From a virus, in the IMG/VR virus record IMGVR_UViG_3300034072_000464, positions 1 to 44,003 of that record: DNA of 44,003 bases; one strand, written 5' to 3'. Below, in pieces: positions 1,449 to 43,946 of the stretch. A program made the position numbers and the translations under genes. A model generated the notes under the pieces. The model was not told where the DNA came from. It did no database searches and worked only from the letters and a program-made list of their open reading frames with translations. The stretch's first letter is position 1; every line of letters starts with the position of its first letter.

Positions 1449-2010
1449 TCTGGCCTCCTAAGTTGCCGGCGTACCATTCGGTTATTGCTTCAACAACAAC
1501 GTCGCGAGGCACGAACACGCATTCGCTTTCCCATCGCTGCGATCCGCGTTCGCTCTTCTGCTTGCGCGTGCGGTAGTCAAGCTTCCATTGCTGCCAGTTC
1601 ATGCAAAACACCGCACATAGCGGGAGAAACGGCACAAGGAAAAACCTGCCCGTATCTTTCCATACCCAAAGCACCCACTCGCACACCTTTTCTTTGTCTC
1701 GAGTCCAGCCAATGCTGGAACCAACTACTGACCACGTTTCGAGAGCTAAATCGTCATTGCCAAACGCGATACAGTCCTTCTCCCGCATCTTCACGTCTAC
1801 GCCTACTGATCTGCCGCAAGACAAAGTCGCAATCCAATCAACACCAGTGCGGTCGGTTTCTGCGTCTGTCTCTTTCGCCCACAGGCAGCCAGGCAGTCGC
1901 AGCTTCAGGATTTCGTTAACGTCACACGACTCTATGATGCCCTTGGAAGCAACAAGCTTTTGGCCAAAGGAATACACGTTCTCTTGCCAGTGATCTGTAA
2001 AGGAAATCAT
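1438..2010 (-). CDS. unknown protein, possible PD-(D/E)XK nuclease-like fold
   Basis: A 190-residue protein starting at ATG 2010, where ATGA overlaps the stop of the ParB-methyltransferase gene. It overlaps the next gene by 11 nt. The stretch TGVDWIATLSCGRSVGVDVKMRE has an acidic residue followed about 13 residues later by V-D-V-K, the spacing seen in restriction-endonuclease-like folds. The C-terminal half is rich in Trp and basic residues. The nuclease idea rests on this one motif; I do not recognise the family. Its position directly after a DNA adenine methyltransferase makes a restriction-like or DNA-processing role possible. Confidence 0.5.
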   Translation of the reverse strand: MISFTDHWQENVYSFGQKLVASKGIIESCDVNEILKLRLPGCLWAKETDAETDRTGVDWIATLSCGRSVGVDVKMREKDCIAFGNDDLALETWSVVGSSIGWTRDKEKVCEWVLWVWKDTGRFFLVPFLPLCAVFCMNWQQWKLDYRTRKQKSERGSQRWESECVFVPRDVVVEAITEWYAGNLGGQNGR

Positions 2011-3200
2011 TTGCCATTTTCTCCCCAAGTGACCCAGCCCGGGCGACTAGACCGAGAAAACATCTCGATGTAAGGCCCTGGGCTGCAAGACTCAACAAGC
2101 TCAAGAAACGACGGTGGCTTGCTGCTGTGGCCACCGTTACCGCGATCGGCCTCAAAAACGGTGCCAACGTCCTTTCGCTTGAGGGGCTGGCTTCCCTTGA
2201 CGCCGAATAAGACGTGCTCTGTCTGGCCGCGAAAGTAGTTGCCCATCCCGAAGTGCGGCTTCACCCATGTGATCGCGGTGATGTATCGAAAGCCCCACGC
2301 CTCAAGCAAGCGAAAGCCCTTCGGCAGCGACCTGTTCGTGATCCACAGGTAGATATGGCAGTCATCGTCTGCAAGGCCGCCAACGTCGAGCTGCTCCAGC
2401 TGCTCAATTGACATCGTGCTGTAGTCGGGCCTAGCGCGTCCTAGTTGGTCTTGGTCGCCTTCGTCGCCCCAGTCCCAAGGCGGGTCGATCACGATGGTGG
2501 CGAACTTGGCATCCGCCACTGCGGCAGCCTGGTCCGGCTCAGGCACGGCGGCGATCTTCTTCCGGTTCTCTTCGCGGCGGGCCTCGCGGGCGGCCTCCTT
2601 GTCCGCCCTGCGGACCTGCCGGTAGGCGGTGGATATGCCGATGTCGCCGGCCTTAGCCTGCTCCCAAAGGTCGGGGCGCTTTTCTCGGACCTGCTCCGCC
2701 ATCGCCACCTGGCCGACCGATGTCTTGGCTGCCTTGGCGATCTCCTTACGCGTGTCCACCGGCTCAGAAAAGGTTTTGTCACTTGGTGACACAACCTTTT
2801 TGTTTCCGCGGCCAGTCTTTTTGCCTTCCTCGACCTTTTTGGCCTTGCCGATAGACAACAGGTCGGCCTTGTTGGCTAGTTCTATTTCGATTCGCCAAGC
2901 AGGCGTTAGGTTTCGCCGTCCGCCTTGGTTTTCTCGCATCCAAATGCGTGCCTCCGCCTTGGATGCAAACTTCTTTTCGACCACGTCAAACGGCAGGCCC
3001 AAGCGGGTGCATATCTCGTAGCGGTTGTGGCCATCGACCAACGTCATCTTTCCCTTACACGGCCAGACAACGAGCGGGTCGCGTGCGCCGCCGTGATCGA
3101 CGATCAACTGCTCAAGCTTTTCGCGCTCGTCAGCTGCCAGCTCAGGAAGGAGGCTGGCAAACTCTGCGTCAATTTCGATGTCTTCAAAAACCTGCGGCAT
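2007..3200 (-). CDS. ParB-like / MT-A70 N6-adenine methyltransferase fusion
   Basis: A 397-residue two-domain protein. Residues 1-100 form a ParB/Srx-like domain (LVVWPCKGKMTLVDGHNRYE, with the diagnostic V-D-G-H-N-R). Residues 100-220 are helical and basic and may be a KorB/ParB-like DNA-binding section. Residues 225-397 are an MT-A70-family adenine methyltransferase with catalytic DPPW at 239-242, then ITWVKPHFGMGNYFRGQTEHVLFG and a C-terminal PYIEMFSR. The family transfers methyl from SAM to N6 of adenine in DNA. The start is ATG 3200 with an ideal AAGGAGG; upstream Met/Leu codons have no such site. It likely protects phage DNA or marks replication sites. The fusion is known in phages. Confidence 0.9.
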   Translation of the reverse strand: MPQVFEDIEIDAEFASLLPELAADEREKLEQLIVDHGGARDPLVVWPCKGKMTLVDGHNRYEICTRLGLPFDVVEKKFASKAEARIWMRENQGGRRNLTPAWRIEIELANKADLLSIGKAKKVEEGKKTGRGNKKVVSPSDKTFSEPVDTRKEIAKAAKTSVGQVAMAEQVREKRPDLWEQAKAGDIGISTAYRQVRRADKEAAREARREENRKKIAAVPEPDQAAAVADAKFATIVIDPPWDWGDEGDQDQLGRARPDYSTMSIEQLEQLDVGGLADDDCHIYLWITNRSLPKGFRLLEAWGFRYITAITWVKPHFGMGNYFRGQTEHVLFGVKGSQPLKRKDVGTVFEADRGNGGHSSKPPSFLELVESCSPGPYIEMFSRSSRPGWVTWGENGK

Positions 3201-3282
3201 AAATGCCTCCTTGCGTAATAAACTTTCCATTCCGCCCCGCCGCGCTGAAGCGGCGCCGTGCCTATCACGAGGGCGGCTACTG

Positions 3283-3675
3283 CTAAAGCATCCGGAAGAC
3301 AGCAACGTCTCCTTCAGTGTCGGTTAGCTCGCAGTCGTACGATCCGCCTTCTGAAAGGCAGAGCGATGTAAGCAGGCTTTTATCAACCGCAAATCGCACG
3401 GTCGCGTCGCCTGACTTTTTTCCACCTGCGCTAAGACGATTTCCCGTTTCGTCCGCAACGCGACGCAGCGTCCACTTCATGTTGGTGTCGTCAAAAGTTG
3501 CTCGGACAAGATCGCCAACAAGCCACCTCATTCGTTTCATGACCGCACAGTTGACGCGAATCCCAATCGAAAACCGCTCACCCCCCGTTTCTGCCGTCGC
3601 GTAAACACGAAGGTCAGATTTTTCTCTGGGGCCCCTGCCGCCCTTGCTTCGCCTGCAAAACTCAATCACTGCCAT
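3283..3675 (-). CDS. hypothetical protein of the early operon
   Basis: A 130-residue protein with a good AAGGAGA site before ATG 3675. The N-terminus is basic (RRSKGGRGPREKSD), followed by a beta-rich body (DLRVYATAETGG; LVRATFDDTNMKWTLRRV; ATVRFAVDKSLL; YDCELTDTEGDVAVFRML). The pattern of short strands and repeated valine/arginine pairs suggests a small beta-barrel nucleic-acid-binding protein, but no family is recognised. It lies between a winged-helix gene and the methyltransferase gene, separated from the latter by 82 nt that contain a short GC-rich hairpin (around 3238-3255). Confidence 0.65.
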   Translation of the reverse strand: MAVIEFCRRSKGGRGPREKSDLRVYATAETGGERFSIGIRVNCAVMKRMRWLVGDLVRATFDDTNMKWTLRRVADETGNRLSAGGKKSGDATVRFAVDKSLLTSLCLSEGGSYDCELTDTEGDVAVFRML

Positions 3676-19916: not shown

Positions 19917-20804
19917 CTAGCTCCCGATGCCGAGTCCCGCGAAGTTTTCCTCGCGGTAGACCTGGTTGACGTAGGCGTACTTGGGTCGCTTCAGTAAATC
20001 AGACCCGTCAACCGCCGCCTCGTAGCGAATCCAAAGGTATTCGTGGCCCTTCTTCACGATGCCGCTGATTGAGCCAACGTTGATTGCCGCAGCCGTGGCC
20101 GGTCCGCTCACGCCCGTTGGGAGCCCACGATTCGGGCTGGCGATGAACTTGTAGGACAGCGACCACGGGCCGTCGCCCTTCTCCGAGTCCCACTCTTGGT
20201 TTCCGCTGCACCCTGCGAAGAGCACCTCGCCCGGCTGGAAGCTGCGGAAGGCGGCATTGTTTACCGTGCCCGTGAGCGCCGCCACGCCCTTGATGTAGGC
20301 GGCCGTGACATACGTGCTCGGCACGTCATACGTCTCGGTCCATTGCAGAGCCGGAACGATGACATCGACGCCGGCCACGCTGTCACCGTCGACGCCGATG
20401 GCCTTGTTTTGATTCGGCGCCGTCCCGGTCGCGGCGTAGCTTTCCTCGTACTCGGCCTGCGTGATGTGCTGCGAGCCGCCGCCGGTGTCGAATGACCGCG
20501 TCCGCCGCAGCGGCGCCTCTTGCTCCTCGTTGTCGGCGCCCGTCTTGGTATAGGTCGCCGTGACTTGGAAGCATTCATCGCCGATGTACTCCACCGAGTA
20601 CTGCTCGACCATGAAGGTGTAGTCGCCAATCGTGTAGAAGCGATTGGTGGAGAAAAACGTGTTGGCGTAGGCATGCACCTCGGTGTCGACGCTGGTGCCA
20701 AACGCGAGGTAGGTGACCGTGACGGTCGAGTCGGCTCGCTTTCCCTTGCGATGCAGGGTCGCGGAGCGGCTTTCAGAGGTTTCAATGAATTGGGCGACTG
20801 GCAT
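19917..20804 (-). CDS. tail/baseplate-type structural protein
   Basis: A 295-residue protein starting at ATG 20804, which overlaps the stop of the tape-measure gene (TAATG). It is strand-dominated: VTVTYLAFGTSVDTEVHAYANTFF; YTIGDYTFMVEQYSVEYIG; TATYTKTGADNEEQEAPLRRTRSF. A central stretch reads IVPALQWTETYDVPSTYVTAAYIKGVAALTG, and the end is YLWIRYEAAVDGSDLLKRPKYAYVNQVYREENF. This is typical of distal tail or baseplate hub proteins, and its place straight after the tape measure fits that. I do not recognise a named family. Confidence 0.7.
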   Translation of the reverse strand: MPVAQFIETSESRSATLHRKGKRADSTVTVTYLAFGTSVDTEVHAYANTFFSTNRFYTIGDYTFMVEQYSVEYIGDECFQVTATYTKTGADNEEQEAPLRRTRSFDTGGGSQHITQAEYEESYAATGTAPNQNKAIGVDGDSVAGVDVIVPALQWTETYDVPSTYVTAAYIKGVAALTGTVNNAAFRSFQPGEVLFAGCSGNQEWDSEKGDGPWSLSYKFIASPNRGLPTGVSGPATAAAINVGSISGIVKKGHEYLWIRYEAAVDGSDLLKRPKYAYVNQVYREENFAGLGIGS

Positions 20805-23014
20805 TAGGGCTGAATTCCTCCCCTCCCCTGCTCAGCAATCTCTGCAGTGTGCTTCGCAGTTTCTGCGGCTGCGTCTGCAATCTTTTGCTGCAGGTTTGAC
20901 CCGAATCCCATGCCGCCGATGCCGACGCTCGAGAAGGTGCCGACCGCTTCGCTTTGGCTGGCTACGGCAGCCCTGTTTTCCTCTTCTATCTTGCGGGCAC
21001 GTTCTTCGGCATCCTGGCGAGCCTTTTCCTCATCTATCATGGCTTGGAGCCACGGCGGCGCAGACAGCCCGCCACCAGGAGGAGGCAATGCAGCTGCACC
21101 ACCAGCCATCGCCGGGCCCATCTCGCCCATTTGTGGTCTCGCAGCCTCTGCGGCAGCCGCTGCTGCCCGCTTGGTATCAAGATCAGTGATCTTGCTTTCG
21201 GCCCTGGCCGTGATTTCTTGGATGCCACGCTCCAGCGCGTTGTCGCCAAGCACGCCGACCTGCGTCAGCCGCTGTCTGACCAGTTCGACCATTTCATCAA
21301 GGGCCTTTGCCGGGTCGTCGAAGCCCTTTCCTCGCGCGTTCGCCGCCGCAGCGGTTGCACGCTGACGGGCTGCGTCAAACTGCTCCTTTGTGCTGGCATT
21401 CTGCAAATCCCGAAACGCCTGGAAGGAGTCCTTCGACCGAATGCCAGCCTGACCCATGAGCGGCTTAAGACGCTGCTCAATTCCGGTCGTGGTCCCGCTC
21501 TCTGCGAGCCGCACTGCGGCAAGGTTTATCGGCCGCTGAATCGCCCGCTCGAAAGCCGCCCGCATTCGCAGAAGAGCCTCCTCGACGGCCGCAATGGCGT
21601 AGATCCATGCCTTCTCAAAGTCGCCCGAGCCAAGTGCGTCGGAAATCTTGCTGCCGACGCCCTCGGCCGTTTGCTGCAAGCCGTCGATGGCCTCTTCGGC
21701 GAATCCAGACTTCACTGCGATAAGAGCAACGCCGGCGGCGACAAGCCCGAGCGGCGACAGCACTATGGCCATTACCGAGCTCAGCAGCGTCAACGCTTTG
21801 CCTGCAGCAATCAGAGCCGCACCAAACCCAAGAATCCCTGCAGACGTTTGGGCAAAGCTGACAACGGCATCGCCGTTTTGCTTTACGAATGCCGTGAGCC
21901 CAGTGACCACGTTCTTAAGAAACTTTCCTGCTTCAAGCAGCGACGGGCCAAGGGCCTCAGTGATCGCAATCGACAGCCTCTCCAGGCTGCCCATCAGCGA
22001 CTCGCCGACGCCGGCCAGCCCACTCTGCAGCTGCCGATACTTCTCGCTGACCGGCAACGCATCCGCCATTGACTTCTTCATGCCGTCGATGCCGGTGGCG
22101 CCGGCCTCGGTCAGAATAAGCGCCGCACGGATTGCGTCGGTGCCAAAGACACGCTGGAAAACATCGTCCTTCGCCGTCTGGTCTAGCCCGGCCGTAGCGT
22201 TGCGAAGCACCTCGATCTGCTGAGCCAGCGGCAGCATGGCACCGCTCGCGTCGCGGAAAGATTCGGTCGACAGGCCAATCGACGCCAAGGCATTTGCAGC
22301 CGCATCGACAGGCGACTTTAGCTTGGCAAACATATTCTTGAGCGACGTGCCTGCATCGGAGCCCTTGACGCCGGCGTTTGCCATGAGCGCCAACGCAGCC
22401 GCCACGTCGTCGATGCCCTGGTTGCTCTGAGCGGCGACGGCCGAGACTTGCGTGAAGGCCATCGCGATCTCTTGGATCGACGTTGACGAGGCATCAGCTG
22501 CCGCCGACATGGTATTCGCAGCCCCGGCCGCTTCGACGCCGAAAACGTTCATGGCGTCGCTCATCACGACAGCCGCCTCGGCCACCGACAACTCGCCGAC
22601 CTTGGCAAACTCCAGGGCCGCCTTGCCGGCACCGCCCAGCACCGCCTCCAGCGGCATACCGGCCTTCAGAAGCTCGAGGAAGCCTTGGGCGATGGCCGTT
22701 GGCCCTGTGCCCATCGACTCGCTGAGCTGCATGGCAGCAGCGTTGATCTTGCCGATGTCCTGCGCGGTGGCTCCCGTGCTGGCCGAGATGTTCTTTAGCA
22801 CGCTCTCGAAGTTCGTGCCCTGGCGAACAGCCAACGCAATCGGCGAGGCCAGCCCGGCACCGAGGGCGGTCATCTTGCCGCCGAAGTTCGTCATCGACGA
22901 ACCGATGGACCCGATCCGCTTGTTGAGCTTGTTGAGCGCCCCGAAGAGCTTGGACGGGTCCGCACCGATCTCGACGAAGACCTTACCGAGCCGGATTCCA
23001 GATGCACTAGCCAT
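20804..23014 (-). CDS. phage tail tape measure protein (TP901 type)
   Basis: A 736-residue protein that sets tail length and is ejected with the DNA. Residues 30-330 have the TP901-type repeat content (SPIALAVRQGTNFESVLKNI, then STGATAQDIGKINAAAMQLSES; SVAEAAVVMSDAMNVFGVEA; GIDDVAAALALMANAGVKGSDAGTSLKNM). Residues 375-440 hold two membrane-prone stretches (VSFAQTSAGILGFGAALIAAG; LSSVMAIVLSPLGLVAAGVALIAV). The rest is Ala/Lys/Glu-rich coiled coil. The length suggests a tail of roughly 110 nm by the usual 0.15 nm per residue, a rule-of-thumb estimate. ATG 23014 lies inside the end of the frameshifted chaperone. Confidence 0.95.
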   Translation of the reverse strand: MASASGIRLGKVFVEIGADPSKLFGALNKLNKRIGSIGSSMTNFGGKMTALGAGLASPIALAVRQGTNFESVLKNISASTGATAQDIGKINAAAMQLSESMGTGPTAIAQGFLELLKAGMPLEAVLGGAGKAALEFAKVGELSVAEAAVVMSDAMNVFGVEAAGAANTMSAAADASSTSIQEIAMAFTQVSAVAAQSNQGIDDVAAALALMANAGVKGSDAGTSLKNMFAKLKSPVDAAANALASIGLSTESFRDASGAMLPLAQQIEVLRNATAGLDQTAKDDVFQRVFGTDAIRAALILTEAGATGIDGMKKSMADALPVSEKYRQLQSGLAGVGESLMGSLERLSIAITEALGPSLLEAGKFLKNVVTGLTAFVKQNGDAVVSFAQTSAGILGFGAALIAAGKALTLLSSVMAIVLSPLGLVAAGVALIAVKSGFAEEAIDGLQQTAEGVGSKISDALGSGDFEKAWIYAIAAVEEALLRMRAAFERAIQRPINLAAVRLAESGTTTGIEQRLKPLMGQAGIRSKDSFQAFRDLQNASTKEQFDAARQRATAAAANARGKGFDDPAKALDEMVELVRQRLTQVGVLGDNALERGIQEITARAESKITDLDTKRAAAAAAEAARPQMGEMGPAMAGGAAALPPPGGGLSAPPWLQAMIDEEKARQDAEERARKIEEENRAAVASQSEAVGTFSSVGIGGMGFGSNLQQKIADAAAETAKHTAEIAEQGRGGIQP

Positions 23015-25508: not shown

Positions 25509-25963
25509 CACACCTCCGGCAGTGCGTCGGCCTCAAACACGCGATACGTCACAGTGATGACCGCCCGCCACACGTTGCGATCGTTCAAGGCGTCATCCGG
25601 GTTGAGCTCGATGCTCAGCGCCTGCGGTTTGGTCACGCCGGTCGGCCACGTCACGCCGGCCCACGAATGCGTGCGGATGTAGAGCATGACGGTGTCAGCC
25701 AGGTCGATCATGCCGTCGACCTCGGCGTCGCTCTGGACGTGGCGACCGATGAACACATCAGCCGAGTAGTCGGTCTGCGTCGTGCCGCGGCTCACCCGCG
25801 AAACGTCGGCGCCGCCCGGCGTCACGAAGATGACGGGCTCGGCCATGTCGTCGACATCGACGGTGGCCCAGTTGCGGCGGTAGACCGCCGTGGTCTCGGG
25901 CGTCCACGCAACCGAATCCAAGCTGTCGGCGAGTGCGTCGGCAATCTCTCGCAGGTAGGCCAT
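25508..25963 (-). CDS. tail terminator/neck-type protein
   Basis: A 151-residue protein starting at ATG 25963 (TAATG overlap). It opens with MAYLREIADALADSLDS, has a strand region (EPVIFVTPGGADVSRVSRG), a helical stretch (SDAEVDGMIDLADTVMLYIRTH) and ends with ALNDRNVWRAVITVTYRVFEADAL. This order, size and position (just before gp10-like and tube genes) match tail-terminator or head-tail completion proteins. The longer frame from 26095 is a shadow. Confidence 0.65.
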   Translation of the reverse strand: MAYLREIADALADSLDSVAWTPETTAVYRRNWATVDVDDMAEPVIFVTPGGADVSRVSRGTTQTDYSADVFIGRHVQSDAEVDGMIDLADTVMLYIRTHSWAGVTWPTGVTKPQALSIELNPDDALNDRNVWRAVITVTYRVFEADALPEV

Positions 25964-27018
25964 TAGGCTGCTTGCGTGTGTGCGAGAATCTGACGCATCG
26001 CGGCGACGTTCGCCCGAATCCGCTCGTCTGCTGGCAATCTTTCCATAGCCTGCTCCCCGTAGAGCAGGGCCTGTGGCCGCTTGTCGAGCTCCCACGCGGC
26101 GACGCTGGCAAGGTCATACGCTCGCCCGATGGCATCCGGGTCGGTGGCGTGTGTACCAACTTCGGTACAGGCGATGGCAGACTCCGCGAACGCTAAACAC
26201 TCGACCCAGTTCTTCTGGTGGTAGCGTGCCAGTGCCAGCCTCTCCCAAGCGTCGGGCTCGTTCTCGGCCTCGGCAGCCGCCCGGTGGAGGTGGATCTCTT
26301 CGCCCGTCATCGCATACAGGCGACGCATGGCATAGGCTCGCTCAGTGACCTGCCCGCCGGGCATTCGCAGGTAGGCCGCAAACTCTGCCGCCGCCTCAGG
26401 CTTGCCGGCGTAGTCGAGCTCGCGGGCGTAGTACCACTTGGTGCGGGCGTCGTGCGGCGCCTCGCGACAGGCCACCTCGAGCAGCCGCAGGTCGGTGACG
26501 TGCTTTTTCCCTTGGTCGCGGTGGTGGTGGATGACGAGCCCGTCGGCCACCCGCTGCCGCTTCTCGCCTGTCCAGCACACAAGGCCCTCGTGGGTCGCTG
26601 CCGTCCAGCGGAAGCCCTGCCGGGCGTGGACCCTGTCGCTCATGAAGACGAGGCCCTCGCTGCCGTCTGGCTTAAACGACCAGACGTACTTGTAGCGGAG
26701 GTTGTTGACCTCGGGCGCCCACGCCTTTTCGATGGCTTCCCGCCAGCCGGGCTGCAGCCGCTCGTCGAGGTCGAGCCGCACGCACACGTCGACATCGGGC
26801 GGCACGTGGTTCATCGACAGGTTGTGGGCGTCATCCCACCGCCACGGGCAGACGTAGCCATTCACGACCGTCACGCCCAGCTGCGTCAGGATGCCCTGTG
26901 TGCCGTCAGTGCTGCCCGTATCGGTGACGATCCGCACGTCGGCGTCGGCGCATGATTCCGCCCACGCCAGAGCGTGCTTCGCTTCGTTCTTCGCCAGGGC
27001 GTAGACGGCGATCGTCAT
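25963..27018 (-). CDS. family 2 glycosyltransferase with C-terminal TPR-like repeats
   Basis: A 351-residue protein starting at ATG 27018 (ATGA overlap). Residues 1-170 form a GT-A domain: IAVYALAKNEAKHALAWAES, DTGSTDGTQ (33-41), and the metal-binding DLDE (83-86), followed by WTAATHEGLVCW and a VIHHHRDQGKK strand. Residues 190-351 are helical repeats (DARTKWYYARELDYAGKPEAAAEFAAYL; AWERLALARYHQKNWVECLAFAESA; AWELDKRPQALLYGEQAMERL), like TPRs. It resembles the SunS-type and related GTs that modify proteins. Among fibre genes it probably glycosylates a virion or host-surface protein. Confidence 0.85.
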   Translation of the reverse strand: MTIAVYALAKNEAKHALAWAESCADADVRIVTDTGSTDGTQGILTQLGVTVVNGYVCPWRWDDAHNLSMNHVPPDVDVCVRLDLDERLQPGWREAIEKAWAPEVNNLRYKYVWSFKPDGSEGLVFMSDRVHARQGFRWTAATHEGLVCWTGEKRQRVADGLVIHHHRDQGKKHVTDLRLLEVACREAPHDARTKWYYARELDYAGKPEAAAEFAAYLRMPGGQVTERAYAMRRLYAMTGEEIHLHRAAAEAENEPDAWERLALARYHQKNWVECLAFAESAIACTEVGTHATDPDAIGRAYDLASVAAWELDKRPQALLYGEQAMERLPADERIRANVAAMRQILAHTQAA

Positions 27019-27563
27019 GTGAGCACCGCCGATTCCCGCAGCCCGTCGTTGTGCCAATCGACCCGCCTGTGCCGCTCGGCGGCGAACTGCGTGACCGCCT
27101 TCTTCACCTCGGGATTGCACGTGTCGTCGGCAAGGATGGTCTTGCAGCCGGCGACCAGCCGCAGATCACGCAGGGCGCCGGCAAACGAGTGGTCGCCGTC
27201 GACATGGGCGAAGTCCGCCGGGGGAAGGCTCTTTACGTGGGCGGTGTCGACGACCACCAAGCTGGCGTCGATTGCCCAGCGTTCGACCACGCTCTGCCAA
27301 TGGGCTAGGCAGTCAAAGCTGTCGGCGTCGCAGGCACCGTCGAGGCAGAGATAGCGGGCCTCGGGTGCGGCAAGGGCAAACGAGACGAGGGAGTAGCCGC
27401 ACCGGGTGCCGATCTCAATCACCCGCTTCGGGCGAACGTCGGCACAGATAGAAGCCTTGTGATAGTAGTGGGATTCGACCCGGTCATTCAGGTCAAACCA
27501 GTCATGCGGCCGCCATGCTTCGGCGAGCGTCTTTGCCAGTTTGCTGCGAAACGACAGAGTCAT
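27015..27563 (-). CDS. SAM-dependent methyltransferase (class I)
   Basis: A 182-residue protein with SAM-binding motif I VIEIGTRCGYSLVSF (48-62) and, after a strand VVVDTAHV, an acidic HVDGDHSFAGALRDLRL (120-136). This matches the Methyltransf_24/FkbM-like arrangement: D-G-D-H is the usual metal or substrate motif. The protein is short for the fold, with no added domain. It starts at ATG 27563, 62 nt inside the propeller gene's end. Methylation of a sugar or small molecule, rather than DNA, is likely, fitting the neighbouring sugar genes. Confidence 0.8.
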   Translation of the reverse strand: MTLSFRSKLAKTLAEAWRPHDWFDLNDRVESHYYHKASICADVRPKRVIEIGTRCGYSLVSFALAAPEARYLCLDGACDADSFDCLAHWQSVVERWAIDASLVVVDTAHVKSLPPADFAHVDGDHSFAGALRDLRLVAGCKTILADDTCNPEVKKAVTQFAAERHRRVDWHNDGLRESAVLT

Positions 27564-34237: not shown

Positions 34238-36091
34238 TCAGGACACGTCGGCCTTGATGCCGGCGAGGTACTCAGCCTTGGCCACGCCAAAGTCAAAGTA
34301 GCCACGCATCTGGACGCCGAGCGTGTTGAAGTCGGCTTCCGCCGTCTCCACGATCGGGCTCTGCACGCCGTTCAAGAACGCCACCTCCATCACCGGCAGG
34401 TCAGCCGGCGAGGCGAGGAGGTAGAAGTCGTCGACGTTGCTCAGGTAGGTCGAGGCGACCACCTGATACCGACCGGCCATCACGTTCCGCTCCGGCTGGC
34501 CGCCAGTCGCACCGCTCTGGATCAGGGACGAACCCATGATCTCGGCAGCGGCGAGCTCCTGGTCAACCGGCACGAGCAGCAGGCGGGGCTCGATGGCAAC
34601 CGGGTTGCCGTCGGGGTCCTTCAGCTTGCGGAACATCGTGGCGATGGTCTTCAGCGTCGAGATAGCCAGGGCACCCGTCGAGGTCTTCTTGTTGCCACGG
34701 GCCGTGGTGAAGAAGCTCGCGTCGTCCTGGAACTCAGTCCAGAAGACATCATTCAACTTCAGGGCACCACCGCGACCGATCCGCTGCGGCACCGCCGTCA
34801 GAGCCCCGAGGTCATCATTGATGAGGTCAGTGCGAGTGACGCTCGTCATGATGCCGTAGGTCTCGGCCGAGATGGTCCGCGACTCGTCAGACGCACCGGC
34901 GTTCTTGAGCTCGCCACCGTTGGCGACCTTCTCGAACTTGAAGCCGCCGTTGAGCCGGTAGCTGGTCAAGGTCTTGAAGTCGTTCACAGAGCGAACCGCC
35001 GAAATCTGCCGCCACGCCGACTCGACGCTGTCAAACCCGGCGAGAAGAAACTTGTTGACCGTCGAGCTCAGGATGCCCGAAATCGAGTGGGTCGCCCACG
35101 CGGCAGCCAGAATCGGCCGCAGCGTAGAAGCGGTCACCCGCCGGGGGCCGTCGTAGCGATTCGCCACGGCAGCCTGGAGCAGCACTTCGCCAAGCGAAAG
35201 CTCCCGGCGGGCCTTGTGGGCCGCCTCGAGCGTCTTCTCGTCGTAGTGCTCCTCGACATTCGGCAGCCCGCCCTGCAGGGCGAAGCTGGCCTCAATGACC
35301 TTGTCGGTCGACACGACCGGCTCGGCCGCGTGGATCGCCGGAGCCGCAGCACGCTGATTGCGGGCCGCCTCCAGATTGTCCTTGCGGATCTGGTCAAGCA
35401 CCAGCTTGGCAACCTCGTTTGCCAGTTCCGCACCGTCGCCGCCCTTGGCGTTGACCGGCAGGGATTCATTGATGGGAGCACCGCCGGCGACAACCGCCGG
35501 GGCTTCCGACTCGGCCGCGGCCTTGTCGGGCGTCGAAGTGGCGTCTTGCGCCATAGGTTCCTCCGTTGCCACCTCTTCGGCGGCGATAGAGACTGCGGTG
35601 CTACGGTCCGCGCCAAGGGTCACAAAACTGGTCTCGCGTAGCGTCGAGGCCCGTACTACTCGGACAGGCCCGACAAGGGTCTGCCCGTTTGCGGTGGTGA
35701 CTTGGTCTTCGCCAAATCGCAGATGGCGGCCGACATCGGCGCCGACACTCGCCTGCCACTCGTAGCCGGCGGCAGCCAGCGCGAGCACCTGACGAGCGGT
35801 CTCGTTGTCGGCGAGGATCTCGCCTTCGACGATGAGCTGCCCGCCCTGCACACTCGGGCGGCCTTGGCCGAGAATCGACCCGAGGGCGTAATCGTGCCCC
35901 ATGACAATCGGGATGGTGGCCGGCAGCGTCATCCCGGCCATGTCGATGACCACTGGTTCGCGGCTCCACGCCTGGCGAATCGGTGCGCCGGTGTAGGCGA
36001 CGATGCGAAACTTGGCCGGTCCGCTGGCCGCTTCGCCTTCGGCCGCCCGCAGAAACGTTACGTCAGTCGAAAGCTTGATGTTGTCACTCAT
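34238..36091 (-). CDS. fused prohead protease and HK97-fold major capsid protein
   Basis: A 617-residue fusion. Residues 1-170 hold the HK97-type prohead protease with likely catalytic H66 (VMGHDYALG), S115 (EWQASVGADV) and E153 (STLRETSFVTLGAD). Residues 170-290 are an Ala/Glu-rich scaffold-like linker (AVSIAAEEVATEEPMAQDATSTPDKAAAE). Residues 290-617 are the capsid fold (LSLGEVLLQAAVANRYDGPR; FLLAGFDSVESAWRQISAVRSVNDFKTLTSYRLNGGFKFEKV; RNVMAGRYQVVASTYLSNVDDFYLLA; GVAKAEYLAGIKADVS). It builds the shell and cuts itself during maturation. The TGATG junction with a small linking ORF points to coupled translation. Confidence 0.92.
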   Translation of the reverse strand: MSDNIKLSTDVTFLRAAEGEAASGPAKFRIVAYTGAPIRQAWSREPVVIDMAGMTLPATIPIVMGHDYALGSILGQGRPSVQGGQLIVEGEILADNETARQVLALAAAGYEWQASVGADVGRHLRFGEDQVTTANGQTLVGPVRVVRASTLRETSFVTLGADRSTAVSIAAEEVATEEPMAQDATSTPDKAAAESEAPAVVAGGAPINESLPVNAKGGDGAELANEVAKLVLDQIRKDNLEAARNQRAAAPAIHAAEPVVSTDKVIEASFALQGGLPNVEEHYDEKTLEAAHKARRELSLGEVLLQAAVANRYDGPRRVTASTLRPILAAAWATHSISGILSSTVNKFLLAGFDSVESAWRQISAVRSVNDFKTLTSYRLNGGFKFEKVANGGELKNAGASDESRTISAETYGIMTSVTRTDLINDDLGALTAVPQRIGRGGALKLNDVFWTEFQDDASFFTTARGNKKTSTGALAISTLKTIATMFRKLKDPDGNPVAIEPRLLLVPVDQELAAAEIMGSSLIQSGATGGQPERNVMAGRYQVVASTYLSNVDDFYLLASPADLPVMEVAFLNGVQSPIVETAEADFNTLGVQMRGYFDFGVAKAEYLAGIKADVS

Positions 36092-36147
36092 CAGTCGAAC
36101 TCCATGCCGGTGTCGATCTCGTCTTCTTCAAGGTCAAGCCAGTTCAC
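36091..36147 (-). CDS. 18-codon linking ORF between portal and protease-capsid genes
   Basis: A GTG at 36147 overlaps the portal stop (GCGTGA), and its TGA overlaps the next ATG (TGATG). The product (NWLDLEEDEIDTGMEFD after Met) is very acidic. Such an exact fit at both ends suggests a translational-coupling peptide or a tiny real protein that bridges otherwise uncoupled genes; composition is compatible with a short acidic peptide. Confidence 0.45.
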   Translation of the reverse strand: MNWLDLEEDEIDTGMEFD

Positions 36148-37595
36148 GCTTCGGCCTCCTCGGGCTGGTCGGCGTTGTCTTCGGGCGGCAGTGCGCCCGG
36201 ATAGTTGCCGTCTGGCAGCATGTCGATGAAGAGCCCGAGCTCCTTCATGAGCGCCACTTCGCTTGCCCGCTGGCGTAGCTCAACGTCCCACTGCTTGCCT
36301 TGCTTGGCGTATTCCGCCGCGAGCGTGGTCGTGTGCGTCTGCAGTCGCGTCTGTGCAGCGTTGGCTTCCTTGGCCGGGTCGACGTGTTCTTTGCCGTCCC
36401 ACTGCCACGCCCAGTTCCATTCGGCGTAGGGCGGCGCACCTTCTGGCAGCACGCCGGCGAGCGTGGCTTCGGCGACCCACGCGGCGAGCACGCGGTCGAG
36501 CATCACCCGCTCGAGCTCGTCACGGTAGACGCGGATGTTGCTGGCGTAGACCTGGTGGTCCATCCGGCCGCTGGCGTAGTTGTAAGACGATGAGTCGAGA
36601 GCGGCGACGTTGTAGGGCAGTTGCAGACAGCGAGCCATTTCGTTGACGATCTCACGCTTGAACATCGCGTAGGTCGACGTGGGCTGCTCGGCCTTCAGTT
36701 GCTCGAAGGTCCAGCCGTCGGGCAGCGTCACCATCGCCCGCTTCTGGATCTCCATCTCGGCAAAGGCGTCGACCTCGTCGACCTCCGCCGCCGGCGAGTT
36801 GGTTCGCAGGAAGCCGGCGAAATCTGCGGCCGTCTCGGCTGCGGCGCAGACCGCCTCGGTATAGCGCCGAAGCTGTCCGAAGAGCCGCAACGCCGGGGCC
36901 ACCTCGGCAACGCCGCGATGCTGGCCGGGCCGCGACGGCCGAAACCAGTGAATCATCGAGTCGGCCGGCACCCGCTGAAACTGCAGGTTGTTGACCCGGT
37001 AGTTGCTGCCGGGGTGGAAGTTTAAGACTTGGTAGGCAATCACGTTGCCCACGTCGTCGAACTCCAGCCCGTCAACCGTGTTGCCTTCGGGCGTGATCGT
37101 CTGCCGCATCAGCTCAGTCGGCGTCGCGACCATCTCGGCCTCGATGAGCCGTAGGTCGAGTTGCACGCCCGCGAGACGCGGGTTGTTGATCATCAGGGCG
37201 AACGCTTCGCCGTCGACCACCAGGGCCTCGCGCATCGTCCGCAACTTGCCCGGCAGGTCGACCGTCCAGCCCCAGTCATAGAAAGCCCGCTCAACCGCCC
37301 GGTCGAGGTCGTCGCTGCCGCTCTGCAGCTGCAGCCGTGGCCCGGTGCCGATCAGGTCGCTGGCCAGCGTCGAGGAGATCCCCGCGAGGTACGAGTTGTT
37401 CGCCCGCTCGTAGCGTGCCCGGTTGCGGATGCTGAGACGCACGACCGGCGAGAGAGCAGCGTCGGCCGCGAAGGCGTCAGCGTTGGACCAGTGGCGGCGG
37501 TCGTCGCCCATCTCGGCGGCGTCGTACTTCGCACGTACTGGCACAGCCACGGTTTGTGGCCGTTCCACTTTCCGGAAAATGGAAAACAGGCCCAC
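36144..37595 (-). CDS. lambda-type portal protein
   Basis: A 483-residue protein starting at GTG 37595 (MGLFSIFRK, TAGTG overlap with the small head gene). It follows the Phage_portal_2/lambda gpB plan: an N-terminal basic strand, RRHWSNADAFAADAALSPVVRLSIRNRARYERANNSYLAGISSTLASDLIGTGPRLQLQ, then RAFYDWGWTVDLPGKLRTMREALVVDGEAFALMINNPR. The crown/wing includes FHPGSNYRVNNLQFQRVPADSMIHWFRPSRPGQHRGVAEVAPALRLFGQLRRYTEA, and the late FKREIVNEMARCLQLPYNVAALDSSSYNYASGRMD. The dodecamer forms the DNA channel between head and tail. Acidic C-terminus. Confidence 0.92.
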   Translation of the reverse strand: MGLFSIFRKVERPQTVAVPVRAKYDAAEMGDDRRHWSNADAFAADAALSPVVRLSIRNRARYERANNSYLAGISSTLASDLIGTGPRLQLQSGSDDLDRAVERAFYDWGWTVDLPGKLRTMREALVVDGEAFALMINNPRLAGVQLDLRLIEAEMVATPTELMRQTITPEGNTVDGLEFDDVGNVIAYQVLNFHPGSNYRVNNLQFQRVPADSMIHWFRPSRPGQHRGVAEVAPALRLFGQLRRYTEAVCAAAETAADFAGFLRTNSPAAEVDEVDAFAEMEIQKRAMVTLPDGWTFEQLKAEQPTSTYAMFKREIVNEMARCLQLPYNVAALDSSSYNYASGRMDHQVYASNIRVYRDELERVMLDRVLAAWVAEATLAGVLPEGAPPYAEWNWAWQWDGKEHVDPAKEANAAQTRLQTHTTTLAAEYAKQGKQWDVELRQRASEVALMKELGLFIDMLPDGNYPGALPPEDNADQPEEAEA

Positions 37596-40673: not shown

Positions 40674-43600
40674 CTACGCCAGCCGTTTGACCTGAATCAC
40701 ACGCTTGCCGGTGTGGTCGGTCGGTATCGCCACCTTCTTGCGACGACGCCCGCCGGTCTCGCTGGCCACCGGCTGCACGCCCGCGATGCTCGCAGCCACG
40801 GCGGCACCGACCAGGCAGTCAAGCCAGTGATTTTCCCGGCCCGCCTTTTTCCATTCGTCGACGACGCGCCCCCGGGCCTCGGTCCGCACCGGGTACTCGC
40901 TCGTCAGATGGTCGATGAGCAGGTCGTGGTGGCCCTTGTGCAGCGTCAAAGCCTCAGGATCGCCTAGGCTCATCCGCAGCCGCCCGGCCACAAACGTCTT
41001 CCACCAGTTCGTGTCATACAACGCTGACCGGTGGTCGGTGTCGCCCAGCTTGCCGATACGCCAGTTCAGCCCGATACGGTCGCCGCGGTGCTTGCCCTTC
41101 TCGGTAATGGGCTGGCTCGACGCCCCGATGCCGCGGCCGTGGCTTGGAAGGATGACCGCGGCAAACGGCGAACGCTTGGCAAACGTCCGCACCACTTGAG
41201 TGCTCTGGCCCCAGTTGGCGTCGATGAGCAGCTGCTGCACGCGCATGGCGGCGCCGTCTTCCCGCTTCCAGTCGCGAGCCACGAGCATCTCGGCCGCCTT
41301 GGTCAGCCCGTCGTGCAATGCACCCTCAAAGCCCGTGCCGGCCGCCGCCCTCGCCAGCGTCCGCTTCGCCGATGATGCCTCAAAGAAGGAAACGCCCTGG
41401 TCAGGGTATGTGCCGTAGGCGACCACGTGCCCGCCGAATTGCTCGCCCCACGACGCCACCAGCCAGAAAAGAAGCCGCTCCTGCACGTCGATGAACGCCG
41501 TCAGCGTGTTGTGGCCGCTCGGGATGACGCCTCGCTCCAGCGGCACCGTCCGCCGCTCGAGATCCGCCTTGACCAGCTTGTCGCTCGCGATGTCATCGGC
41601 GATGGGCTGATTCATGTATTCCGCAAAAAACGCAGCCTCGCCACGGTCGATGCGGAGATTCCAGGCGTGCTGGATCGCGGTGAGCTCATCGGCGTTCTTT
41701 CGCTCAGGCCACGCCACGCGGCTGCCCTTGTCCATCTCGGCCTGGTGCTGCTGGTAGAACTCGTCTGCCTCGCCCGTGCCAACGCCGTCACGCTGCCCCT
41801 GCCGCCGCAGTTCGCCGTACTGCGCCCACAGGTCATCGGCCGGCGGCCACTCGTAGACCAGCTGCGTCCGCTCGCCTTGCCACTCGGGATGCTTGTTGCG
41901 GTCGAGAAGCCGGTCGGCGAGATCGTCCGGTCGGATGACCGTGATGGTGCAGAGGCCGCTCATCTTCACGCCCGGCCCGCCCAGGCCGAGAATGGCACCA
42001 GACAAGATCCGTTCGCGCGTCGCCACCTGCGACGGGCTGGACGCCGCTTCGTCCGTCTGCGGGTCGTCGATGAGCACCAGCTGCGGCCGGATGGTCTTGC
42101 CGTCCGGTCGCGTGTGCTTCAGCCCGCGGATGCGGCCAGTGATGCCCGCCACGCGAACGGCGGCGCCGGCCGACGGCGCGCCGGGTATCCACGGCAGCGT
42201 GATCTGGTCGGCGGTCCACTCGATATGGGTGGGCTCGCATTCGCACGTCTGCCCCTGTGCCCGGCGGGTGATGCCTTCCATCGCCCGTATCGGGTGGCAC
42301 GCGCCGGGAAAGTCTTCGGCCAGCACGTCATTGATTTCGAGGTGGCTCTTGATGCTGTCGAGCATCGCGTTGGCGATCGCCTGGTCGGAGCCGATGAGCA
42401 TCACGAACTGGCGATGGCCGTAGAGCATCGCCCAGATACACGCCCACTCCGATAGCGTGCTGTTGTGCGTTGGCACCATTCCGCGACCGCAAAGATACAT
42501 GCGGCTCGGAGAATCCACCTGCACGCACCTAACGGGAACGCTAGAAACCTTGCGGATTTCTACGATTCTCCTCGACGCTGAAACTCGTGTCTTTTCGGGC
42601 TGCCTTTGACGCGACGCCTTTCTGGTTAATGAGAAAACACGCCTGCCATCTGTGGGAGAAAAAGTGATGCGGTAGTACGGCCTGCCGTCAATCATTTTTG
42701 TTCGATAGCGTCGCTTGTAGCCAAGCGATGCAAGCAGTTCCATCACGTCATCACGGAGCCGAGGAAGTTTCGTCACGTACTCCGCGAAGCTGCCAGATTT
42801 AGAAATGCTGCCATCTGTATCCATCAGGCCACGCAGCAACTCCATCCGCGATTCTTCGCTTGCGCGCAAGTATCCCTGCGGAATGTGCTTGCTCCCAATC
42901 AGCCCAAGCCATTGCAGCCTACAAGCCAAGCTAGCGCCAGACTTTGTTGCTGTGTCATCTTGGTGGCGACTCAACAAGTTGTTGACATCGAACTCCGTGC
43001 AACCTAGGTCATCGCGGATCTTTGATCGCGACCACCCCATGGCACGCCTCTGCCGTATTTGCTGCTCAAGCGTAACGCGGTCCTCGGATGTGAAGCGACG
43101 CCCCTTGCCGATTGTGTATGAGGCTGCGTTGGCTACTTTGCTTTTGTTGCAACTGCCAATGTTTTCGTGGCGTGAAACAAGCCGCAGCATCTCATCTGCG
43201 TCCTGGTCGCCAATCGTCAGGCGGTTTGTGGCAGTGTGTCCGTCGCCGAGCCAAGCCCCAAGAATGTATGGGTGTATGTGCGAAGTAGTTTCCTTGCACG
43301 CTATCGGCTTGGCAATTGGAATCGAATAGCGAACCTCCCGCCAACCACGCTTTTCAGAAATCACAACACGGTCGACCATGTCAGCAGTCCGCAGCGTTAG
43401 CGGGTTGTGTCGACTGTATCGGTCATTGACTGTCCACAAGTGGTCGCCGCAGCATGTGATTGTCTCGCCGTCATCAAACTCGACCTCGTAGCACTCTCTG
43501 CCGTGCATCACTTCGGTAGCCGCGACCACCCTGCACTCTTGGCCTGTTTCGTCGTAAAGGCAGTCTCCGACTCGCACATCAGCCATAGTCGTCCACCCGC

Positions 43601-43946
43601 TCGGCGTCGGAAGCGGTGTTGATAGAGACAATGCCTTGCCAGATCCGCGAGGCATTGCGAATGCGAAGAGCTCGCCCTGCAGCACGGCGCGCTCGATCTT
43701 GTCGATGGCTGTCAGGTGGTCAGGCGACCACGCCAGCGGAAACGACTCGGCGCCGTAGGTCTCGCAGAAGGAGCGGAAACTCGTCTTGCACTTGGCCGCC
43801 CGCTTCTTATTCTTGACCGGCGGAATGCTGCCGATGTCGCGGCCGGCGGCTGCGACCTGACGCGACCGCTCGCCGGTGCGACGCTTGATGTCGTCGTACC
43901 GAGCCTTGGCGGCGTCGAGGCGATGCTTTTGGTCGGAGCGGGTCAA
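40674..43946 (-). CDS. terL: large terminase (TerL) with an in-frame intein
   Basis: A 1090-residue reading frame: N-extein 1-104, intein 105-495, C-extein 496-1090, leaving a 699-residue terminase. The Walker A loop (AMPRGSGK|STLSEW) is split by the intein after its lysine. The C-extein has Walker B LVLIDDPQ and then the packaging-motor coupling region (MSGLCTITVIRPDDLADRLLD). The nuclease domain starts with FIDVQERLLFWLVASWG and continues to QQLLIDANWGQS and GHHDLLIDHLTSEYP. It moves DNA into the prohead and cuts concatemers. The TTG start at 43946 has no clear ribosome site, an odd point. The small terminase is not in the window. Confidence 0.93.
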   Translation of the reverse strand: MTRSDQKHRLDAAKARYDDIKRRTGERSRQVAAAGRDIGSIPPVKNKKRAAKCKTSFRSFCETYGAESFPLAWSPDHLTAIDKIERAVLQGELFAFAMPRGSGKALSLSTPLPTPSGWTTMADVRVGDCLYDETGQECRVVAATEVMHGRECYEVEFDDGETITCCGDHLWTVNDRYSRHNPLTLRTADMVDRVVISEKRGWREVRYSIPIAKPIACKETTSHIHPYILGAWLGDGHTATNRLTIGDQDADEMLRLVSRHENIGSCNKSKVANAASYTIGKGRRFTSEDRVTLEQQIRQRRAMGWSRSKIRDDLGCTEFDVNNLLSRHQDDTATKSGASLACRLQWLGLIGSKHIPQGYLRASEESRMELLRGLMDTDGSISKSGSFAEYVTKLPRLRDDVMELLASLGYKRRYRTKMIDGRPYYRITFSPTDGRRVFSLTRKASRQRQPEKTRVSASRRIVEIRKVSSVPVRCVQVDSPSRMYLCGRGMVPTHNSTLSEWACIWAMLYGHRQFVMLIGSDQAIANAMLDSIKSHLEINDVLAEDFPGACHPIRAMEGITRRAQGQTCECEPTHIEWTADQITLPWIPGAPSAGAAVRVAGITGRIRGLKHTRPDGKTIRPQLVLIDDPQTDEAASSPSQVATRERILSGAILGLGGPGVKMSGLCTITVIRPDDLADRLLDRNKHPEWQGERTQLVYEWPPADDLWAQYGELRRQGQRDGVGTGEADEFYQQHQAEMDKGSRVAWPERKNADELTAIQHAWNLRIDRGEAAFFAEYMNQPIADDIASDKLVKADLERRTVPLERGVIPSGHNTLTAFIDVQERLLFWLVASWGEQFGGHVVAYGTYPDQGVSFFEASSAKRTLARAAAGTGFEGALHDGLTKAAEMLVARDWKREDGAAMRVQQLLIDANWGQSTQVVRTFAKRSPFAAVILPSHGRGIGASSQPITEKGKHRGDRIGLNWRIGKLGDTDHRSALYDTNWWKTFVAGRLRMSLGDPEALTLHKGHHDLLIDHLTSEYPVRTEARGRVVDEWKKAGRENHWLDCLVGAAVAASIAGVQPVASETGGRRRKKVAIPTDHTGKRVIQVKRLA
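42462..43634 (-). mobile_element. class 3 intein with LAGLIDADG homing endonuclease
   Basis: 391 residues, from A1 (ALSLSTPLPTPSGW) to N391 (MVPTHN) before extein S+1. A1 replaces the usual Cys/Ser nucleophile. The class 3 triplet is present: W67 (DHLWTV, block B), C370 (VRCVQVDS, block F) and T389 (block G, PTHN), with H65 in block B and H390 next to N391. Blocks C and E of a LAGLIDADG endonuclease are visible (YILGAWLGDG; LLRGLMDTDGSI), plus a helix-turn-helix-like insert (AMGWSRSKIRDDLGCTEFDVNNLL). The element is visibly less GC-rich than its host gene. It must splice itself out to restore the P-loop; without splicing the terminase cannot bind ATP. Confidence 0.9.

Follow-up and report, generated by a model that had tools for sequence, protein, structure and literature searches.

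A gpA-like terminase of a tailed phage interrupted in its Walker A loop, very probably by an intact and mobile class 3 intein with a LAGLIDADG homing endonuclease

What kind of intein interrupts the Walker A motif (P-loop) of the terminase gene in viral record IMGVR_UViG_3300034072_000464, is it intact and mobile, and does its splicing control DNA packaging? The window (the whole 44,003-nucleotide stretch analysed, positions 1 to 44,003 of this record) contained this gene on the minus strand (Table 1). The virus was a tailed phage with a gpA-like terminase, and the insertion in the Walker A loop of this enzyme was very probably an intact mobile class 3 intein carrying a LAGLIDADG homing endonuclease.

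Interrupted terminase gene and insertion site

The ORF translation gave a 1090-aa terminase precursor, composed of a 104-aa N-extein, the intein (precursor residues 105-495, with the frame open throughout its 391 residues), and a 595-aa C-extein; translation without the intein gave 699 aa for the exteins together. The start codon was TTG (positions 43944-43946) without an obvious Shine-Dalgarno sequence, and the spliced length of 699 aa was therefore conditional; the closest intein-free allele (L030; see below) had the identical start. Assignment to the terminase family came from the Walker A motif GSGKST read across the junction, the gpA-type nuclease (Pfam GpA_nuclease match at 3e-22, plus terminase PHROG matches in the exteins), and the nearby portal/capsid genes. 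Since the window encoded a lambda-type portal, a capsid/protease protein, and a tape-measure protein, the virus was recognized as a tailed phage. The phage also encoded an MT-A70 family methyltransferase domain and a protein matching a PHROG annotated as beta-1,4-glycosyltransferase.

The translated junctions read PRGSGK^ALSLSTPLPTPSGW ... VPVRCVQV ... MVPTHN^STLSEW, with AFAMPRGSGK as the N-side flank and STLSEWACIW as the C-side flank. The original prediction of an insertion at 42462-43634 separating K104 from S+1 (GSGK^ST) was thus exact to the base, with coordinates unchanged, and sequence, Pfam, and PHROGs bore out its further statements on the +1 Ser, the LAGLIDADG domain, and the phage terminase host. 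The junction could be read in 77 relatives; the +1 residue was S or T in every one of them, and GK^[S/T] was the insertion site in 58/77. The key residues of the intein were found in the contexts CGDHLW (W67), VPVRC (C370), and PTHN (T389-H390-N391).

The terminase gene of a second contig (L002) was identical to that of the window, and this codon was occupied by the same intein in L003, L004, and L005 (62-69% identity). An assembly artefact as the origin of the insertion was ruled out by this second contig with the same allele, together with the diverged relatives.

The intein-free terminase had no close record in the phage collection searched (best rows about 29% identity). Terminase relatives were found in 46 of the 294 sampled Planctomycetota genomes, many at 50-55% identity and several within long contigs; these relatives make a planctomycete host likely for the phage, Planctomycetota being the phylum sampled. 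In one Planctomycetota genome, the terminase was likewise interrupted at this P-loop codon by a class 3 intein (L192; G149:C16:13500-18500).

Table 1. Features of the interrupted terminase gene and other genes of the window
Feature	Position	Strand	Evidence
gpA-like terminase large subunit gene, intein-interrupted	40674..43946	(-)	GpA_nuclease 3e-22; terminase PHROGs
Class 3 intein, 391 aa	42462..43634	(-)	translation; 6rix/6bs8 matches; missing from L030 and others
GSGK of Walker A motif, residues 101-104, N-extein end	43635..43646	(-)	sequence; GSGK[ST] unbroken in empty relatives
Ala1, non-nucleophilic intein residue 1	43632..43634	(-)	sequence; A in 61/79 relatives
Cys48, equivalent of the M. 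smegmatis DnaBi1 redox-partner Cys	43491..43493	(-)	74/79 close relatives
Block B C61-C62-G-D-H65, Cys62 for usual Asp	43440..43454	(-)	D in 79/93 rows, C in 6/93
Trp67, block B, W of W-C-T	43434..43436	(-)	79/79 relatives
First LAGLIDADG motif LGAWLGDG, residues 125-132	43239..43262	(-)	alignments
Extra segment between LAGLIDADG motifs, probable helix-turn-helix, residues 177-228	42951..43106	(-)	predicted helices
Second LAGLIDADG motif LRGLMDTDG, residues 267-275	42810..42836	(-)	LAGLIDADG_3 1e-9 over residues 264-329
Cys370, block F nucleophile, C of W-C-T	42525..42527	(-)	79/79 relatives; aligns with 6rix/6bs8 block F Cys
Thr389-His390-Asn391, block G (T of W-C-T, penultimate His, cyclising Asn)	42462..42470	(-)	79/79 relatives
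Ser+1, first C-extein residue, splicing nucleophile and P-loop Ser	42459..42461	(-)	sequence
Lambda-type portal	36144-37595	(-)	same window as terminase
Capsid/protease protein	34238-36091	(-)	same window as terminase
Protein matching PHROG annotated beta-1,4-glycosyltransferase	25963-27120	(-)	2e-79
Tape-measure protein	20804-23014	(-)	same window as terminase
MT-A70 family methyltransferase domain	2007-3305	(-)	PF05063, 6e-25

Class of the intein

Class 1 intein chemistry begins at residue 1, while class 2 inteins have no nucleophile at residue 1 and use Cys+1. Residue 1 of the window intein was Ala, not Cys, Ser, or Thr, from which the original prediction had excluded class 1; this exclusion stood, but class 2 inteins also have a non-nucleophilic residue 1, so that Ala1 alone was insufficient to define the class. 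Class 3 was favored over class 2 because the +1 residue was Ser rather than Cys and the W-C-T triplet was present in blocks B, F, and G (W67, C370, and T389), together with the terminal Asn (N391) and the nucleophilic S+1. A class 2 intein, in which the +1 residue would attack the N-junction directly, would likewise typically display Ala1, but it can be virtually dismissed: it needs Cys+1 and has no block F Cys nucleophile, while the window intein had Ser+1, Cys370, and a complete W-C-T, and its closest solved relatives belonged to class 3.

These relatives were recovered by a sequence search of solved structures, namely Mycobacterium chimaera DnaB1 (6rix, E-value 1e-32) and M. smegmatis DnaBi1 (6bs8, 7e-29), both of class 3, with alignments running from intein residue 1 to the final Asn. 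A1, W67, C370, T389, H390, and N391 were all aligned with their DnaB1 counterparts, and H65, W67, C370, T389, H390, and N391 were invariant among the 79 non-redundant class 3 relatives aligned. C370 and W67 were thereby placed in blocks F and B, and the proposed class 3 identity through W67/C370/T389 was supported by both the solved inteins and 79/79 relatives.

The fold agreed with this assignment. A structure model of the intein based on 69 sequences (pLDDT 94.7, pTM 0.92) was used in place of a poor five-sequence model (pLDDT 61). In Foldseek, LAGLIDADG inteins, PI-SceI among them, aligned with this model, and the Hint part of the model matched 6bs8/6rix with target TM-scores of 0.79-0.86. 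PI-SceI and other class 1 LAGLIDADG inteins (1vde and 1dq3) shared the architecture of a Hint domain interrupted by an endonuclease, at 11-15% identity; unlike the window intein, PI-SceI-type inteins follow class 1 chemistry from residue 1.

DnaBi1/DnaB1 (PMC6195587) resembled the window intein in being class 3 inteins at a P-loop site with the P-loop Ser as the +1 residue, and Ala1, W67, the block F Cys, the block G Thr-His-Asn, and Cys48 were all aligned; they differed in residing in a replicative helicase and in being mini-inteins without endonuclease. Another difference lay in block B, with Asp62 in DnaBi1 and Cys62 in the window intein: the motif D-x-x-H, which is general rather than class-defining, was replaced by C-x-x-H with H65 retained, and Cys-Cys at residues 61-62 was common to the window intein, L003, L004, and L005. 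A role in positioning of the N-terminal bond was proposed for the block B Asp (PMC6195587), and thus Cys62 may tune splicing; judged from the alignment, this replacement could slow or alter it.

Endonuclease domain, empty alleles, and mobility

Acidic residues were present in both LAGLIDADG motifs of the endonuclease domain, whose fold matched PI-SceI, PI-PfuI, and I-DmoI. Between the two motifs, residues 157-236 accounted for 80 residues in the window intein but 16-46 in most relatives. Within this wider stretch, an insert of about 50 residues (177-228) contained three helices predicted from the 69-sequence model (184-198, 203-210, and 214-222) and is probably a helix-turn-helix; matches to helix-turn-helix Pfam families were weak, sub-threshold, and confined to the relatives L003/L005. 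Several other phage class 3 inteins contained long inserts at the same place. The inteins of Synechococcus phage B23 (L057), Escherichia phage AV108 (L062), and Klebsiella phage fENko-Kae01 (L063) shared W-C-T, LAGLIDADG, and the GK^T site with the window intein, but they displayed about 30% identity, were located in other terminase families, and had a shorter endonuclease without the insert.

The closest intein-free allele (L030) was 98% identical to the spliced terminase and read GSGKST, and exactly the intein segment was missing from L030 and more than 20 other terminases. In the terminase tree, occupied alleles were interleaved with empty ones, and the supported branches required a minimum of four changes. 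No co-conversion tract was found between the window and L030, whose divergence was even on both sides of the intein. Third-position GC content (GC3) was 0.61 in the intein and 0.85 in the exteins, i.e., the intein had a foreign composition.

A homing signature at the DNA level was found between L003 and L004. Their inteins differed by one mismatch in 1173 bp, with 214/214 four-fold sites identical, while 52 mismatches (about 10%) were present in the next 534 bp of C-extein; the closest flanking mismatches lay 28 bases from the intein on its N-extein side and, on the other side, 9 bases into the C-extein. This contrast, in two metagenome assemblies, is what recent homing is expected to leave behind. 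In the comparison of the window with L003, the splicing part was 78% identical and the endonuclease core 73% identical with four-fold sites near saturation, and therefore both domains are probably under selection.

On this comparative evidence, the window intein looks intact and is probably homing-competent. A decayed intein with poor splicing or a dead endonuclease would be consistent with Cys62 in place of the usual block B Asp and with the fast evolution of the helix-turn-helix-like insert (25-45% identity), but it is highly improbable: the reading frame was full, the acidic residues were kept in both LAGLIDADG motifs, both domains were conserved, Cys62 was shared by L003/L004, which look recently mobile, and a non-splicing intein at the P-loop would destroy the packaging motor.

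Splicing pathway and control of packaging

By homology and from the P-loop position of an intact class 3 intein, splicing would proceed as follows: (i) C370 would attack the K104-A1 bond to give an internal branched thioester; (ii) the N-extein would then be transferred to S+1; (iii) cyclisation of N391, aided by H390, would release the intein; and (iv) a final acyl shift would restore GSGK-ST and yield the 699-aa terminase. In DnaBi1, the P-loop Ser has two roles, as the +1 nucleophile in splicing and as part of the ATP site of the mature protein (PMC6195587). Before splicing, K104 would be separated from S+1 by 391 residues; such a precursor should not bind ATP properly and should be without ATPase and packaging activity, and the original description of a terminase inactive until splicing is a sound expectation from the P-loop position, for which Pyrococcus horikoshii RadA, cited in PMC6195587, is a precedent. 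The endonuclease would cleave empty terminase alleles close to the conserved codons of the P-loop, and the intein would be copied in during repair.

It had also been suggested that splicing could gate packaging. The same class 3 intein would then act as a regulated switch, e.g., a redox switch through a C48-C370 disulfide: under oxidation, this pair plus Cys61/Cys62 would keep the terminase an inactive precursor, and packaging would await a reducing cytoplasm. Both C48 and the block F Cys were present, with C48 found in 74/79 near relatives and in 64/69 after leaving out those recovered with a Cys-holding search pattern, and two additional cysteines (Cys61/Cys62) were located in block B. In DnaBi1, Cys48 was called non-conserved, yet it was needed for splicing and for the redox switch, in which the disulfide between C48 and C118 (the block F Cys) forms and splicing stops under H2O2 (PMC6195587). 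Every Cys48 substitution tested in DnaBi1 abolished splicing (PMC6195587), so the conservation of Cys48 may instead be structural. Cys48 was absent from about half of the sampled more distant class 3 inteins, which also speaks against the gate, and all five terminase inteins tested spliced quickly (PMC5050341). Constitutive splicing was suggested for endonuclease-bearing class 3 inteins (PMC7891396), and close relatives such as L030 function without any intein. The published splicing data lean against a gate, and we regard regulated gating of packaging by this intein as improbable.

Cys48 was also considered as a class 3 hallmark, which was ruled out by its absence from about half of the distant class 3 inteins. 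In the control set of non-class-3 Planctomycetota inteins, position 48 was mostly V, L, T, or Y, as read from weak alignments.

Published examples exist both for class 3 inteins at a P-loop (DnaBi1) and for terminase inteins at a P-loop (TerL1-a), and the catalogue of class 3 inteins had reached 1701 by 2020. According to Kelley et al. 2016 (PMC5050341), mycobacteriophage inteins TerL1-a to TerL1-e reside, as here, in phage terminase large subunits; TerL1-a lies in the P-loop between the invariant Lys and the following Thr, and several TerL1 inteins are of class 3 with LAGLIDADG endonucleases, splicing and cutting being demonstrated. As described there, the hosts of the TerL1 inteins belong to the Terminase_1/Terminase_6 families of mycobacteriophages, unlike the gpA-like terminase of the window. 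A literature search retrieved no intein described for the gpA-like terminase family or for the probable host phylum Planctomycetota.

The window intein extends class 3 terminase inteins to the gpA-like family, with kin in Planctomycetota genomes. The intein-bearing allele together with the 98%-identical intein-free allele provides a clean natural case for the cost or benefit of a P-loop intein to a phage. The counts for Cys48 show a nearly invariant residue within this branch of the phage inteins of class 3 but not class-wide, and this distribution allows redox control of splicing to be tested outside mycobacteria.
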